From assembly GCA_020848545.1 (NCBI GenBank), contig JADLHZ010000018.1, positions 1-36,014 on the forward strand: 36,014 bases of DNA, given 5' to 3'. The notes below the pieces were generated by a model that worked only from the letters and a program-made list of their open reading frames with translations, was not told the DNA's origin and searched no databases. This document shows positions 11,301 through 35,320 of this stretch, piece by piece. A program made the position numbers and the translations under genes. The DNA comes from Deltaproteobacteria bacterium (GTDB lineage: Bacteria > Myxococcota > JADLHZ01). Numbering within the stretch: position 1 is the first letter of the stretch; each line of letters opens with the position of its first letter.

Positions 11301-11392
11301 GCCGTGGCTCGCGCCATCGCCATCGCTTCTTCATAGTCGCCATCGCCATCGCCGAGTCGTGAGTACGAAAGCGGGTGCAGCAACTAGGCCGA

Positions 11393-11537
11393 GCTTCGTT
11401 CGTCCCTCCGTGATGTTTTCGCACGCTCTTGCTGCTGCGACTTCCTATGTGTCCCTTCGAATGACCCCCGCTGTGCGCCGGCGGGCATGACTCCGTGCTT
11501 CGAACGACCTCCGCGGCCGCCTATATGCGGAGTTGCC
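11393..11537 (+). repeat. Left inverted arm (145 bp) of the RAYT element
   Basis: Starts GCTTCGTTCG and ends CTATATGCGGAGTTGCC. It matches the reverse complement of 12666-12810 at 123 of 145 positions with no gap. The innermost 24 bases (from CGGCCGCC to GTTGCC) are identical in both arms. Confidence 0.9.
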
Positions 11538-11574
11538 GGTGCGATCGTTGCGTGCAACGCGAGCGGTGTATCTT

Positions 11575-11613: not shown

Positions 11614-11702
11614 CCGCGTGCGTGTTCCTGTGTCAGGCATGTCGTCAGTTCGCGCAGCCCTCTTCGCCTGCCTTTACCTTTTCACAATTGACATCGGGCC
11701 CA

Positions 11703-11730
11703 TTGACAAATCAATAGATCTGCCTATAAT
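11703..11730 (+). promoter_or_regulatory. Consensus sigma-70 promoter of the RAYT gene (leaderless)
   Basis: TTGACA at 11703-11708, a 16-bp spacer and TATAAT at 11725-11730: both hexamers are perfect. A second TTGACA lies at 11688-11693, too far from this -10 to pair with it. The ATG of the RAYT gene begins at 11738, 8 nt after the -10 box, so transcription would start at or next to the start codon and the mRNA would be leaderless. Confidence 0.75.
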
Positions 11731-11737
11731 TATTCAC

Positions 11738-12571
11738 ATGAAACGCATTCCGCGCCAAGCGATGTTGCCGTTCGGGCGGTCCGAGCGTTCGGTGAATCGT
11801 CAAATCGCCGCGCGCTTGGCTGGGAAGAAGGCGCGCGACATCAAGCGTGGCCCGGGGCGACCGCGAAAGCCGCCGGGAGCGAAGAAGGTGGCGCCGCACA
11901 TCTCGCGCCCAACTCTCGGAACCCAGAGCGCCGTGCATGTGACGTTGAAGCTTCGTCGTGGCGTGCCGAGCCTGCGCAGCCGCAAGAAGTACGCACTCGT
12001 GAAACGCGCGTTTTCGCGCTTTCGTCTCGTCTCTCGTGCTGTCGCGCGCGTCGAGGACGCTGCGGATGCTTCGCGCGAAGGCGACGGCTTTCGTTTGGTG
12101 CACTACGCGGTGCTCGGCGATCACGTGCATATGTTGTGCGAGGTCGATGGCTCGAAGTGGCTCGCGCGTGGCGTTCAGAAGATCGCCATTAGCCTCGCGC
12201 GATCACTCAATGCCGCCAGCGTCCGCGAAGCCGGCGGTTCGCTCGATCCGAGGGACGGCTCCATGAGCGATCGCCCGGGTTGGATCGGGCCGATCTTCGC
12301 GGAACGATACCATCTGCACGCTCTCGCGACACCGACCGAGATCGCGCACTGCCTCGAATACTTGTTCACGAACGCGGCGAAGCACTTTGGCGCGATCAAC
12401 GTCGTCCGCTGCAAAGTGAGCGTCGCGAGCGGCCGAACGCGCTACCTCGACATCGACGCGTTCACGTCCTTCGCCGAGCTGCACACGAGCGCCGACCCTC
12501 CCCTCGCCCGCCCCCGGGGTTCACTCTTGAAGCGCGAAATGCGGAAGAAAGGCTGGGCCGCCCGCGCCTAG
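11738..12571 (+). CDS. REP-associated tyrosine transposase (RAYT 1), Y1/HUH type
   Basis: A 277-residue single-strand DNA transposase of the IS200-like Y1/HUH family, RAYT branch. Residues about 30-75 are basic and Pro/Arg-rich (GPGRPRKPPGAKK), followed by VHVTLKL. The HUH metal motif is YAVLGDHVHML. GVQKIAISLARSLN and FAERYHLHAL follow, and the catalytic Tyr probably lies in CLEYLFTNAAKHFG. Family members nick and join REP hairpins. Start ATG 11738 follows a consensus promoter without any Shine-Dalgarno. The gene looks full length and undamaged. It differs strongly from RAYT 2 at the right end of the window, so the two are separate lineages rather than copies. Confidence 0.88.
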   Translation: MKRIPRQAMLPFGRSERSVNRQIAARLAGKKARDIKRGPGRPRKPPGAKKVAPHISRPTLGTQSAVHVTLKLRRGVPSLRSRKKYALVKRAFSRFRLVSRAVARVEDAADASREGDGFRLVHYAVLGDHVHMLCEVDGSKWLARGVQKIAISLARSLNAASVREAGGSLDPRDGSMSDRPGWIGPIFAERYHLHALATPTEIAHCLEYLFTNAAKHFGAINVVRCKVSVASGRTRYLDIDAFTSFAELHTSADPPLARPRGSLLKREMRKKGWAARA

Positions 12572-12592: not shown

Positions 12593-12646
12593 CGAAAACG
12601 GACCGGGAGCGTTTTCACGACTCGAAAAGGGACCGGGGAAGTTTCG
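12593..12646 (+). repeat. Two REP-like palindromes (core GAAAAGGGACCGGGG) after RAYT 1
   Basis: Copy 1 (12593-12616) and copy 2 (12623-12646) share CGAAAA, then GGACCGGG or GGGACCGGGG, closing with TTTC or TTTTC, so the ends pair (GAAAA/TTTTC) around a GC-rich centre. A third degenerate start (GGCGAAAACGG) precedes them at about 12579. The same family occurs three times at 30803-30932. The position directly downstream of a RAYT gene suggests this is its REP. Confidence 0.75.
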
Positions 12647-12665
12647 GCCAACGTCCGCTCGCTCG

Positions 12666-12810
12666 GGCAACTCCGCATATAGGCGGCCGACGACGTGGTT
12701 CGAACCACGGAGTCGTGCCCGCCGGCGCACAGCAGAGGTCATTCGCAGGGACACGCAAGAAGTCGCCGCAGCAAGAACGCGCGAAGCAATCAGGAAAGGG
12801 CGAACGAAGC
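12666..12810 (-). repeat. Right inverted arm (145 bp) of the RAYT element
   Basis: Reverse complement of 11393-11537 with 22 mismatches and no gap. It contains a perfect 16-bp palindrome, CGTGGTTCGAACCACG (12694-12709), which is broken in the left arm. The arm fills most of the space between the convergent RAYT 1 and radical SAM genes. Confidence 0.9.
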
Positions 12811-12845
12811 ACGACGCCCAGCAGCCGTCTCGCTCTAGTGCAACC

Positions 12846-30386: not shown

Positions 30387-30417
30387 AAAAAGGTCCCAGG
30401 GACCTATTTTTTGTCCA
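30387..30417. repeat. REP-like palindrome, copy A (core AGGTCCCAGGGACCT)
   Basis: AGGTCC/GGACCT pair around CAG, flanked by an A-run on the left and AT6 on the right, so it can act as a terminator in either direction. 31 bases here match 35280-35310 at 30 positions. This type of palindrome is typically associated with RAYT genes, one of which (35297-35986) ends in copy B. It lies between the divergent hppA and sigma-operon genes. Confidence 0.85.
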
Positions 30418-30491: not shown

Positions 30492-31472
30492 ATGCGCTGC
30501 GCTGCCATCACGGCCGTCGCTCTCGCGTGCATCGGCGCGGCGGCACCGGCCCATGCGATCGCGCTCGAGTGGCACGCGCCGAACGGCTGTCCGAGCGCGT
30601 CCGACGTCCGCGCCCAGATCATCGAGAAGCTCGGCGGCGACCGTGCGATCACGGTCACTGTGCGTATCGTCCGCGAGCGGCGCGATCGCTTCGTGCTCGC
30701 GGCGACGATCGCGGGCGTCGATCGGCGCTTCGAGGGACCACGCTGCGACGACGTCGCCCGTGCCCTGGTCGTCGTCGTCGCCCTCCTCGCCGAGACACCG
30801 CGCGAAAAGGGACCGGGGACGTTTTCGCCGGACGCCGCGCAAACGCCGACGCTGCCTCCGGAGCCCGAAAAGGGACCGGGGACGTTTTCGATGGCGACCG
30901 CCGCTGGCGAAAAGGGACCGGGGAGGCTCTCGCGCGTCCCGGTGGGCGTCGGCGTGCACCTGAAGGGCGGCCTGAGCGCGCTCTTGTTGCCGGCGCCGAC
31001 GTTCGCGATGGCGCCCGGCGTGTTCATCGAGCTCGGCCGCGCGCGGATCGAGGCGCAGGCGATCTACGCGCTCGCGACCGCGGCGGCGGTGCCGGGGTTA
31101 CCGTCGGCAGAAGCGAGCGCCGACTTCGCGGGCGGCAGCTTCAGCGGATGCTACCTACATCCGATCGGCGCGTGGGATCTCGGCGCGTGCGGCGGCGTGT
31201 GGCTCGGCGCGCTGCGCGTCGAGACCCGCGGCATCACCGAACCCGGCCGCGCGCTGACGGCGTTCGGCGCGATGTCGTTCGGCGGCGTCGCGCGGTGGCA
31301 CCTCGGCCGAGGCTTCTCGGTCTTCGCCGAGGTCGACGCGAGCGCGCACTTTTCGCGGCCACGCTTTGCGATCGACGCGGCAAGCGCGCCGGCGGCGTTC
31401 TATCAACCGGCGCCGGTCTCTTTGGCCCTTCAGCTCGGAGCGGACTTCGCATGGCGTTCACAGAAGCGCTGA
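30492..31472 (+). CDS. Exported barrel-like protein with three REP-encoded insertions
   Basis: A 326-residue protein with a signal peptide (cleavage after APAHA). The N-terminal part has the WHAPNGCPSASDVR motif seen in myxobacterial proteins encoded near ECF sigma factors. Residues about 104-150 are a linker containing EKGPGTFS twice and EKGPGRLS once, each encoded by a REP-like palindrome in the same reading frame. After residue 150 the sequence is strand-rich and barrel-like (GVGVHLKGGLSALLLPAP, VFAEVDASAHFSRPRF, LALQLGADFAWRSQKR). GGGGAG lies just before the ATG. It is first in a five-gene operon and overlaps the sigma factor gene by 22 nt. Function unknown. Confidence 0.78.
   Translation: MRCAAITAVALACIGAAAPAHAIALEWHAPNGCPSASDVRAQIIEKLGGDRAITVTVRIVRERRDRFVLAATIAGVDRRFEGPRCDDVARALVVVVALLAETPREKGPGTFSPDAAQTPTLPPEPEKGPGTFSMATAAGEKGPGRLSRVPVGVGVHLKGGLSALLLPAPTFAMAPGVFIELGRARIEAQAIYALATAAAVPGLPSAEASADFAGGSFSGCYLHPIGAWDLGACGGVWLGALRVETRGITEPGRALTAFGAMSFGGVARWHLGRGFSVFAEVDASAHFSRPRFAIDAASAPAAFYQPAPVSLALQLGADFAWRSQKR
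30803..30932 (+). repeat. Three REP-like palindromes inside a coding sequence
   Basis: Copies at 30803-30827, 30866-30890 and 30908-30932 share GAAAAGGGACCGGGG; the first two close with ACGTTTTCG, the third has diverged (AGGCTCTCG). Start-to-start distances are 63 and 42 nt, both multiples of three, so all are read in one frame as EKGPG. The same family lies beside RAYT 1 (12593-12646). Confidence 0.9.
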
Positions 31473-32056
31473 AGCCCGGCCACTCAGAAGACGTGGAGGC
31501 TACGCTGACACTTCCGGGAATGCGCGTCGCTGCGAGCGCGAGCGTCGAAGCCGTGCCGAGCTTCGAGCAAGCGTACGACGTGTACTTCGACTTCGTTTGG
31601 CGTGCGATGCGCCGGCTCGGCGTGCACGAAGCCGCGATCGAAGACGCCGTCCACGACGCGTTCCTCGTCGTCCACCGGCAGCTCCCGCGCTTCGAAGGCC
31701 GCTCGACGTTGAAGACGTGGCTCTACGGCATCGCGCTGCGCGTCGCCCGTGACTATCGGCGGCGCGATCGGCGCAAGGGCGGCCTGCAAGCGTTGAACGA
31801 CGACATCAGCGCCGAGGGTCGTACGCCCGAAGAAGCGTCGGCCGATCACGAGGCGGTGCGCCTGCTCGATCGCGTGCTCTCGGAGCTCGACGAAGACAAG
31901 CGCGAAGCTTACGTACTCGCGGAGATCGAAGGGATGAACGTGCCCGAGATCGCCGAGCTCGTCCGTGTCAATCTGAACACGCTCTATTCACGCCTGCGCA
32001 TCGCTCGGACGCACGTCGAGACGCGGCTGCAGCGCTTGCTCGAGGAGAGACCATGA
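31451..32056 (+). CDS. ECF-type RNA polymerase sigma factor
   Basis: A 201-residue sigma-70-family factor. Region 2 spans about 37-105: FEQAYDVYFDFVWRAMRRLG, DAVHDAFLVVHRQL and TLKTWLYGIALRVARDYRRR. Region 4 spans about 138-198: LSELDEDKREAYVLAEIEGM and VPEIAELVRVNLNTLYSRLR, the DNA-binding helix-turn-helix. It lacks regions 1 and 3, as expected for ECF factors. It starts inside the end of the upstream gene (ATG 31451, 22-nt overlap) and its stop overlaps the next start (ATGA), so it is translationally coupled to both. Envelope and surface proteins in the same operon suggest it answers an envelope signal; its target promoter is not visible here. Confidence 0.93.
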   Translation: MAFTEALKPGHSEDVEATLTLPGMRVAASASVEAVPSFEQAYDVYFDFVWRAMRRLGVHEAAIEDAVHDAFLVVHRQLPRFEGRSTLKTWLYGIALRVARDYRRRDRRKGGLQALNDDISAEGRTPEEASADHEAVRLLDRVLSELDEDKREAYVLAEIEGMNVPEIAELVRVNLNTLYSRLRIARTHVETRLQRLLEERP

Positions 32057-33257: not shown

Positions 33258-35279
33258 ATGCCTCGCTCGCACACGCCATGGCTGTTCAGCGCGCTCCTCC
33301 TCGCCGCTTGTCCGTCGGGCAGCCTCGACCTCGTGTCGCCGAAGCTCGTCGTCAGCGTCGGCGCCGGCGAGCTAAAGGACACCTCCGTCGCCTTCGGTGA
33401 GGTCGTCGTCACCAACCGCGCCACGCGCGTCGTCACGCTCGCGAACGTCGGGGCGCGCAGCCTCGAGATCGAAGGCGTGGACAGAGAAGGCGAAGGCACG
33501 TTTCAGCACTCGCCGATCCCGGCCGCGATCGAGCGCGGCCAGCAAGTGAACGTGGTCGTGAGCTTCGAGCCGAACGCCGTCGGCAAGGCGCTCGGCGCCA
33601 TCGTCCTCTACACGAACGAGCTCGGGCGCGGCACGGTGCGCGTCGATCTTTCCGGCGACGGCGTCGATCCCGGCGTCCGCGTATGCGCCGGCCCGCTCGA
33701 CCTCGTCGACGAGAACTGCCGCCCGGGCACGCGCCGTGTCGACTTCGGCGAGGCGATCGAGAAGCACGCGCGCCCAGATCGCCGCGTGCAGATCACCGCC
33801 GTCGGCGGCAGCCGCGTCGAAGTGGCGAGCGCCAACGTGCGCCTGACGAAGCCGCTGCCGAAGTGCGCGGCCGGCGATGCCTTCACGATCGTCGACGATC
33901 CCGGCGCCTTCGCCCTCGCGCCCGGCGAGACGCGCGAGCTCGCGATCCATTTCGCGCCGCCGTGCGCCGGCGACTACGAGGCGGAGCTCTTGCTCGAGAC
34001 GAGCGACCCGCGCAATCCGGCGCCAAAGGTGTCCCTCTCCGGCTCGGGCGAGCACGATTGCACCGCGATGAGCGACACATACTTTCCGGAGATCGTCTTC
34101 GACAACAAGGTCGACATCTTGTTCATCCTCGATGACTCGGCGTCGATGCAGTACATTCAGGCGACGGTGAAGCAGTACGCCGCGAGCTTCATCGGCCAGC
34201 TCACCGATCCGCTGCGCCCTGTCGACTTTCACATCGGCGTGACCACGACCGACTTGACGCGCGCCGATCGCCGTGGCCGCTTGGTCTCACGCACCGTCAA
34301 CGCCGGCGCGTTCAGCGAGACGATCCGCGTCATCAACAAGCACTCGCTCGCCACCGCGCCGAACCCCGCCGATCGCGGCCCGGTGCGCGCTTTTCAGTTG
34401 CTCATGGAGGCGATCGATACCAGCGGCTCACCCGACGAGTTCGGCTTCGCGACCGCCGGCGCCGCGCTCACCTTCGGCGGCAGCTTCAACTACAGGTTCG
34501 GCACCGGCACGTACACGATCCCAGGCGCGGCCGACATTTCGACCTCCGCGGACCCAACGAAGCCGAACGGCTTCCTGCGCCCCGACGCACGGCTCGCGAT
34601 CATCATCCTCTCGGACGAAGACGATGCCACCGGCCAAGTCGCGACGATGGCGAGCTACGTCAAAGGGCTGCAAGGGCTCGTCGGCCGCGCCGGCGTTCCG
34701 CCAGGCTTCAAACAGCGCGTGCTCGACAAGCCTGAGGACTTACAGATCTTCGCCGTCGTCGATCCCTCCGCCACGAGCGCGCAAGGTTGCCCGGCGCCGT
34801 CGACGTGGCAGCCCGGCGATCCGCCGTACTCGTACAGCTCGGGCACGCCCAACTATCACGCGGGCGTCGCGGCGTTTGGCCCCTCCGCGCGCATCGTCTC
34901 GTTGTGCTCGAACTTTCCGGCAACGCTGACCGACATCGCCACCAGCCTGTCGAAGCCGCAGTGCACCTTCGAGGTGAAAGGCGGCATCGTCACGCCCGAA
35001 GAAGGCGCCGATCTGTGCATCCAGGGCGGCCGCTGCTTCCTGCCGAGCGAGTACACCATCGCCCCGCCGAGCGCCGCGCAGCCGAACGGCAGCGTCACGA
35101 TCAAAGACAGCGCCTGCCCGAACCTGCAGACCGTGCTCCAGTTCGACTTCGTCTCCTGCTTGCGCTCCGCCGACCAAGACGGCGACACCGTGCCGAACGT
35201 CATGGATCTCTGCCCCGTCAACGCCGACCCTGGGCAGGACGACGGCGACAGCGACGGCACCGGCGACGCCTGCGAGTAA
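33258..35279 (+). CDS. Surface lipoprotein with ASH-like, vWA and thrombospondin-3-like parts
   Basis: A 673-residue lipoprotein (lipobox LAAC, Cys18). Two immunoglobulin-like ASH/choice-of-anchor-D-type domains (about 30-130 and 150-265; for example VVVTNRATRVVTLANVGARS and ELAIHFAPPCAGDYEAELLL) are followed by a von Willebrand A domain from about 283, with the metal site FILDDSASM (about 288-296) and later IIILSDEDDA. The C-terminus is a thrombospondin type 3-like calcium-binding stretch (DQDGDTVPNVMDLCP, DDGDSDGTGDACE). It probably mediates adhesion or binding at the cell surface. AAGGAG lies 5 nt before the ATG. It is the last gene of the sigma operon; its TAA stop abuts the REP-like palindrome. 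Confidence 0.85.
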   Translation: MPRSHTPWLFSALLLAACPSGSLDLVSPKLVVSVGAGELKDTSVAFGEVVVTNRATRVVTLANVGARSLEIEGVDREGEGTFQHSPIPAAIERGQQVNVVVSFEPNAVGKALGAIVLYTNELGRGTVRVDLSGDGVDPGVRVCAGPLDLVDENCRPGTRRVDFGEAIEKHARPDRRVQITAVGGSRVEVASANVRLTKPLPKCAAGDAFTIVDDPGAFALAPGETRELAIHFAPPCAGDYEAELLLETSDPRNPAPKVSLSGSGEHDCTAMSDTYFPEIVFDNKVDILFILDDSASMQYIQATVKQYAASFIGQLTDPLRPVDFHIGVTTTDLTRADRRGRLVSRTVNAGAFSETIRVINKHSLATAPNPADRGPVRAFQLLMEAIDTSGSPDEFGFATAGAALTFGGSFNYRFGTGTYTIPGAADISTSADPTKPNGFLRPDARLAIIILSDEDDATGQVATMASYVKGLQGLVGRAGVPPGFKQRVLDKPEDLQIFAVVDPSATSAQGCPAPSTWQPGDPPYSYSSGTPNYHAGVAAFGPSARIVSLCSNFPATLTDIATSLSKPQCTFEVKGGIVTPEEGADLCIQGGRCFLPSEYTIAPPSAAQPNGSVTIKDSACPNLQTVLQFDFVSCLRSADQDGDTVPNVMDLCPVNADPGQDDGDSDGTGDACE

Positions 35280-35320
35280 AAAAAGGTCCCAGGGACCTAT
35301 TTTCTGTCCAACAATTGGAC
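35278..35320. repeat. REP-like palindrome, copy B, with adjacent hairpin; bidirectional terminator
   Basis: A-run, AGGTCC-CAG-GGACCT, then ATTTT (35278-35304), followed by a second hairpin GTCCAA-CAA-TTGGAC (35306-35320). Copy A lies at 30387-30417. It separates the convergent vWA lipoprotein and RAYT 2 genes and supplies stop codons or their flanks for both: TAA at 35277-35279 merges with the A-run and the RAYT stop is inside the palindrome's right flank. It should terminate transcription from both sides. Confidence 0.85.

Follow-up and report, generated by a model that had tools for sequence, protein, structure and literature searches.

REPs are units of 20–40 nt that occur in high copy number and mostly between genes. 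They are imperfect palindromes that form a stem-loop, a stable hairpin in canonical REPs, and a RAYT gene (REP-associated tyrosine transposase) lies adjacent to them. The coding regions of several species contain REPs as well; DnaE2, DNA ligase, and other repair proteins are among the hosts, and loops and linkers have been proposed as the sites that tolerate them (Di Nocera, De Gregorio and Rocco 2013, PMC3733652). Tagged intragenic REPs are often translated as grouped units of 20–30 residues, and some RAYT-like genes are surrounded by terminal inverted repeats, forming TIRtrons (PMC3733652). Rickettsia palindromic elements (RPEs) provide another precedent: the first report listed 19 reading frames with in-frame elements, and the gmk product was still active (PMC2229807).

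Here, we analyze a stretch of 36,014 nucleotides (the window) from a Deltaproteobacteria bacterium of the phylum Myxococcota (contig JADLHZ010000018.1, assembly GCA_020848545.1). A preliminary description of the window had proposed that three REP palindromes linked to a RAYT gene are translated in frame within the linker of an exported protein, P0001. The copies and their link to RAYT hold up, and we found that they belong to a large repeat family that has entered a series of other genes. The features of the window are collected in Table 1.

Table 1. Repeat copies, transposase-like gene, and host gene in the window (positions are counted from its first nucleotide).
Feature	Position	Strand	Remarks
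Inverted repeat, left arm	11390..11547	+	158 nt, 84% complementary; encloses RAYT 1 and its two copies
RAYT 1, REP-associated tyrosine transposase-like gene	11639..12571	+	HVH motif in translation; 16 matching genomic places
Non-coding copy, good palindrome variant CGAAAACGGACCGGGAGCGTTTTCA	12593..12617	+	CG-closed form folds better than shuffles, z −2.0
Non-coding copy	12623..12646	+	52 nt 3' of RAYT 1
Inverted repeat, right arm	12656..12813	−	pairs with 11390..11547
P0001, host gene	30492..31472	+	exported protein: N-terminal alpha/beta domain, repeat-bearing linker, barrel-like C-terminal part
Repeat copy 1	30803..30827	+	CGAAAAGGGACCGGGGACGTTTTCG, translated as EKGPGTFS; exact match to the 247-copy core
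Repeat copy 2	30866..30890	+	same 23-mer as copy 1; translated as EKGPGTFS
Repeat copy 3	30908..30932	+	16-nt core exact, right arm diverged (GGCTCTC); translated as EKGPGRLS
ECF sigma factor	31451..32056	+	overlaps the 3' end of P0001

Three repeat copies in the linker of P0001

We rechecked the coordinates, strand, and frame of the three copies in P0001, and all agreed with the preliminary description: the copies start 63 and 42 nt apart, lie on the plus strand, and are read in the frame of the host gene. The 23-mers at 30804–30826 and 30867–30889 are identical and the 23-mer at 30909–30931 has three mismatches; the right arm that follows the core GAAAAGGGACCGGGGA is CGTTTTC in two copies and GGCTCTC in the third. 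Matches to the repeat were absent from 100 dinucleotide shuffles of the window.

P0001 has no match in Pfam. Its alpha/beta domain spans residues ∼24–101 and its linker residues ∼102–148. A single-sequence fold prediction was confident for the N-terminal domain only: pLDDT values were mostly 70–88 at residues 31–100 and less than 50 at residue 105, where the repeat begins, and beyond. Seven relatives, all from the same phylum, have in common the N-terminal domain, a mostly proline-rich linker, and the C-terminal part; a search of the genome contigs confirmed no relative. The linker has 53 residues in P0001 and 23–55 residues in the relatives. According to the preliminary description, orthologues in distant species with an EKGPG linker but no nucleotide similarity to the repeat would have spoken against its reading. 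We found a variable, proline-rich linker in the seven orthologues and EKGPG in none of them (0/7), which leaves that reading standing. P0001 and the overlapping ECF sigma factor gene (30492–32056) form a conserved pair in the seven further genomes of the phylum: the sigma factor gene adjoins the P0001 relative in 7/7.

The orthologues also bear on the idea that EKGPG is a protein-level linker motif with an origin independent of the DNA repeat. The peptide, as judged from its sequence, would be hydrophilic and turn-forming, and it does sit in a linker. However, its coding sequence is identical at the nucleotide level to 247 mostly intergenic copies, and the peptide occurs in no orthologue. For the window gene, an independent EKGPG linker is refuted by this identity to the repeat family, and as an explanation in general we consider it next to impossible.

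A dispersed repeat family and its link to RAYT genes

The 16-nt core is present in 247 exact copies in the 7.99-Mb genome, where ∼0.006 would be expected from base composition. When one mismatch is allowed, there are 270 matches in this genome versus 0 or 1 per genome in 57 relatives from the phylum. A scan of 84,980 species genomes, in which the bacterium's own or a very near genome is possibly missing, found no tandem arrays of the core. We rejected an assembly artefact as the source of the copies because they are spread over dozens of contigs.

For the distribution of the copies, we used 263 of them (247 exact and 16 with one mismatch) in 1.83 Mb of fetched regions and called the genes around them with a codon-usage model. 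A count of genic against intergenic copies and of their reading frames had been suggested at the outset: 185 copies (70%) are intergenic, even though intergenic DNA makes up only 6.8% of the sample (93.2% is coding), a 10-fold enrichment. Another 75 copies are inside called genes, in mixed frames, and three overlap a gene end.

The repeat unit is ∼24–26 nt long. Its left half, CGAAAAGGGACCGGGGA, is invariant; the right arm is variable and often ends in TTTTCG. In the exact copies, a degenerate arm resembling NNNTTTC follows the head. The base that precedes the unit is C in 90% of the exact copies. Tandem neighbors are arranged head to tail, mostly 23–28 nt apart, and their spacings are mostly not multiples of three. 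All six reading frames of the core are free of stop codons. A composition profile of positions −10 to +32 in 156 exact copies showed neither a GTAG nor a CGTC tag. The word palindrome, which the preliminary description had used, suits a few variants well: CGAAAACGGACCGGGAGCGTTTTCG and CGAAAAGGGACCGGGTCCCTTTTCG fold better than shuffled sequences (z −2.0 and −3.7). It does not suit the family as a whole, in which the conserved part is the asymmetric left half and the common variants that we tested fold no better than shuffles. The family resembles REPs in unit length, copy number, intergenic majority, and a RAYT-like gene flanked by the same repeat, and most of its tested variants differ from canonical REPs by their weak folding.

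RAYT 1 matches the NCBIfam model REP_Tyr_transpos with an E value of 5.8e-8 (32.7 bits, below the curated cut-off of 80) and the Pfam model Y1_Tnp with an E value of 0.023; a second gene of the window, RAYT 2, matches REP_Tyr_transpos with an E value of 4e-17, likewise below the cut-off. The two non-coding copies that had been placed beside RAYT 1 are indeed there, 3' of the gene (12594–12616 and 12624–12646). We found members of the RAYT-1 family at 16 places in the genome (L099–L114): ten, including RAYT 1, are at least 77% identical over most of the protein, and the others are 48–74% identical. An exact copy of the repeat lies on the same strand within 100 nt downstream of 4/16 RAYT-1 paralogues, versus ∼41 such genes in ∼6,800 (p ∼2e-6); the remaining 12/16 have no exact copy within this distance. 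Because four paralogues carry a nearby copy, spread driven by RAYT is likely, and we infer that a REP-associated tyrosine transposase is probably what disperses the repeat.

Sequences related to the inverted repeat that encloses RAYT 1, 75–120 nt long, also occur beside other RAYT-1 paralogues, a pattern that would fit movement of the gene as a unit bounded by terminal inverted repeats. The inverted repeat has no match in Rfam, and our search for RAYT 1 on plasmids found none.

Could the repeat instead be a DNA-level site, for protein binding or chromosome organization, that is kept by selection and tolerated where it falls in coding DNA? A core that is nearly invariant (247 exact copies of 270 with at most one mismatch), asymmetric, and arrayed at 23–28 nt would fit such a role. 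However, a recent multiplication better accounts for a repeat that is confined to one genome, occurs in both orientations, and is linked to RAYT, and the site is missing in relatives from the phylum. We regard a DNA-level function as improbable.

The window also contains a second family that is truly palindromic, AAAAAGGTCCCAGGGACCTATTTTT, with the form AAAAAGGTCCC(A/T)GGGACCTWTTTT. One copy (30387–30411) lies ∼80–105 nt upstream of the start of P0001 and resembles an intrinsic terminator, and another (35280–35304) overlaps the 3' end of RAYT 2. Genome-wide, we counted 66 forward and 65 reverse matches with at most two mismatches; because each palindrome matches both strands, these correspond to ∼65 sites. 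A tRNA-Val called by ARAGORN at 33574–33665 falls inside a coding gene (33258–35279) and is probably spurious.

Copies inside other coding regions

To score whether clusters of copies lie within genes, we assessed the 240-nt flanks on both sides of every cluster for a coding frame, using relaxed thresholds and three sizes of scoring window. Twelve clusters had flanks that were open, on the same strand, and in phase. Together with the window gene, which is supported by its orthologues, they make a minimum of 13 firm in-gene cases: P0001 is not singular, and at least a dozen other proteins of this bacterium carry the repeat family. Of the nine same-strand clusters that were out of phase, eight fall in the spaces that separate neighboring genes; the ninth (L048), close to a predicted start, is ambiguous. 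We saw no clearly frame-broken host gene among the tested clusters. AlaS (L081) and the NagZ-like (L080), nitrilase-like (L085), and DUF418 (L060) genes were dropped as hosts because, judged by their translations, their start codons are probably 3' of the copies, and L041, L049, and L059 were judged to be shadow ORFs.

Four of the 13 firm hosts (L037, L058, L065, and L083) are genes of DNA replication, recombination, or repair: topoisomerase III-RecQ, LigD, DnaE2, and XerC. The topoisomerase III-RecQ copy is at residue 604, in the junction (595–620) between the end of the topoisomerase models (∼595) and the start of the RecQ models (∼620). In LigD, the copy occupies residues 528–533, between the ligase match, which ends at 519, and the polymerase match, which starts at 545. 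The XerC loop that contains three copies has 36 residues, versus 14–22 (median 16) in 29 relatives, none of which has the repeat peptide (0/29). The DnaE2 copy is in a loop of 10 residues that is not unusually long (5–39 residues in 19 relatives, 0/19 with the peptide). Kynurenine 3-monooxygenase has 18 residues around its copy that align opposite gaps in the solved enzyme. Further hosts include a GH1 glucosidase, MBOAT and NYN proteins, a PLD enzyme, a peptidase S51, and a Ser/Thr kinase. Because DnaE2 and P0001 show no extra length, a net insertion in these two proteins is argued from sequence only, through nucleotide identity to the dispersed repeat.

The DnaE2 gene of a relative from the phylum (G013; L119, ∼1408–1502) has heptanucleotide tandem repeats, AGGCTGT and GTCGTAA, near the same loop, which is enlarged and reads ...LQPTAYSLQP... 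These repeats suggest that the DnaE2 loop is generally tolerant of repeats.

The reading frames of the copies are biased. Among the 75 copies in called genes, 35, 12, and 8 are on the same strand in frames 0, 1, and 2, and 20 are antisense. The first copy is in same-strand frame 0 (EKGPG) in 9/13 firm cases (p 4e-5 under six equal frames), and 11/13 cases are on the sense strand (p 0.011). Part of the frame-0 preference may arise from codon composition: C has its highest share at codon position 3 (0.477, versus 0.26–0.27 at the other positions), and the element is nearly always preceded by C. Were a preceding C needed for insertion, this alone would raise frame 0 to ∼48% of sense insertions, and the p value for 9/13 would become 7e-4. 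The preliminary description had taken the single strand and frame of the three P0001 copies to suggest selection or local duplication. The strand and frame are as described in the window gene. However, arrays with spacings of 23–28 nt often mix frames, in other genes two or three of them, and those in the XerC, NYN, MBOAT, and GT4 genes contain frames other than frame 0, so that a single strand and frame characterizes the window gene without being a rule of the family.

As for selection, the genome-wide frame preference is in its favor and the C at codon position 3 may account for part of that preference; selection on the peptide could be behind what is left after the correction. Frame 0 would then be kept because EKGPG has been co-opted as a flexible, hydrophilic linker peptide. 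The excess of frame 0 among first copies and the excess of sense insertions are as expected under co-option, but the first of these weakens once the preceding C is considered, the four mixed arrays contain other frames, and the hosts are functionally unrelated. We think co-option unlikely. A broader version, in which the element is adapted to insertion in genes (open in six frames, tolerant of lengths that are multiples of three, and encoding a harmless, turn-forming linker peptide), would make it a genome-wide source of linkers, with replication and repair hosts over-represented (4/13) in the manner of the 2013 survey; this is quite unlikely, and we mention it as a speculation.

As for duplication, the element may have entered each gene once, the extra copies being supplied locally by duplication in tandem or by slippage; the frame shared by the P0001 copies would then be a by-product of duplication combined with frame selection. 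Copies 1 and 2 share an identical 23-mer although C occupies position 17 in only ∼12% of copies, and tandem copies 23–28 nt apart are common. Against this, duplication of a unit with its spacer would yield repeated spacers, but the two in the window gene, 40 nt and 19 nt long, bear no relation to one another and look like ordinary linker when translated; moreover, most tandem copies elsewhere are separated by distances that three does not divide. Single entry followed by duplication is a possibility that we take seriously but would not put at even odds.

Proposed origin and comparison with known systems

Taken together, these results suggest that a REP-like unit multiplied in this genome, most probably through the HUH/Y1 transposases of the RAYT-1 family. 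Its arrays would have grown head to tail, with the majority of copies settling between genes. Because the unit is short and its core open in all six frames, some insertions with a length that is a multiple of three would have fallen in protein loops and linkers and survived there; selection would have purged the insertions that broke genes. The three P0001 copies would be such survivors in the proline-rich, length-variable linker of an exported protein linked to a sigma factor, translated as EKGPG peptides that are probably close to neutral. We give this account as a whole a probability of roughly 0.8. The family itself, its copy number and intergenic bias, the in-phase flanks, the lack of the peptide in orthologues, and the physical link to RAYT genes are observed; transposition by RAYT, purifying selection, and neutrality of the peptide are the steps that we infer.

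The family offers a clean and countable case of a RAYT-linked mini-element whose copies would be translated as peptides within conserved enzymes, and it belongs to neither of the published GTAG and CGTC superfamilies. It supplies exact sites at which the tolerance of loops and linkers to insertion can be measured.

How does the family compare with those already described? Like the GTAG- and CGTC-tagged REPs (PMC3733652), it is short, mostly intergenic, and in some places translated in frame, and the GTAG kind is also linked to RAYT. The hosts overlap as well: DnaE2, DNA ligase, and repair genes are found among them, so that the 2013 observation on DnaE2 and DNA ligase recurs in an unrelated repeat family. 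In contrast to the tagged REPs, the present family lacks a tag; its 16-nt head is fixed and asymmetric and its second arm variable, its units form head-to-tail arrays, and its RAYT-like gene is present in multiple copies.

The comparison with Rickettsia palindromic elements, made in the preliminary description, is sound in principle: in both cases small dispersed elements lie in frame in genes of conserved proteins, and here the relatives of XerC, DnaE2, and P0001 lack the peptide. However, RPEs are 105–146 bp long and form long hairpins (PMC2229807), whereas the present unit has ∼25 nt, a weak hairpin, and a link to a tyrosine transposase.

At its source, the system resembles REPtrons (PMC2817692, PMC3733652), RAYT 1 being an HUH tyrosine transposase-like gene with adjacent REP-like copies, and its inverted repeat is reminiscent of TIRtrons (PMC3733652). 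It is unlike either in that RAYT 1 combines neighboring REP-like copies with an inverted repeat of 158 nt and is present at about ten places with at least 77% identity. Intragenic REPs have been known since 2013 (PMC3733652) and RPEs for longer; what is new is the repeat family that shows them.
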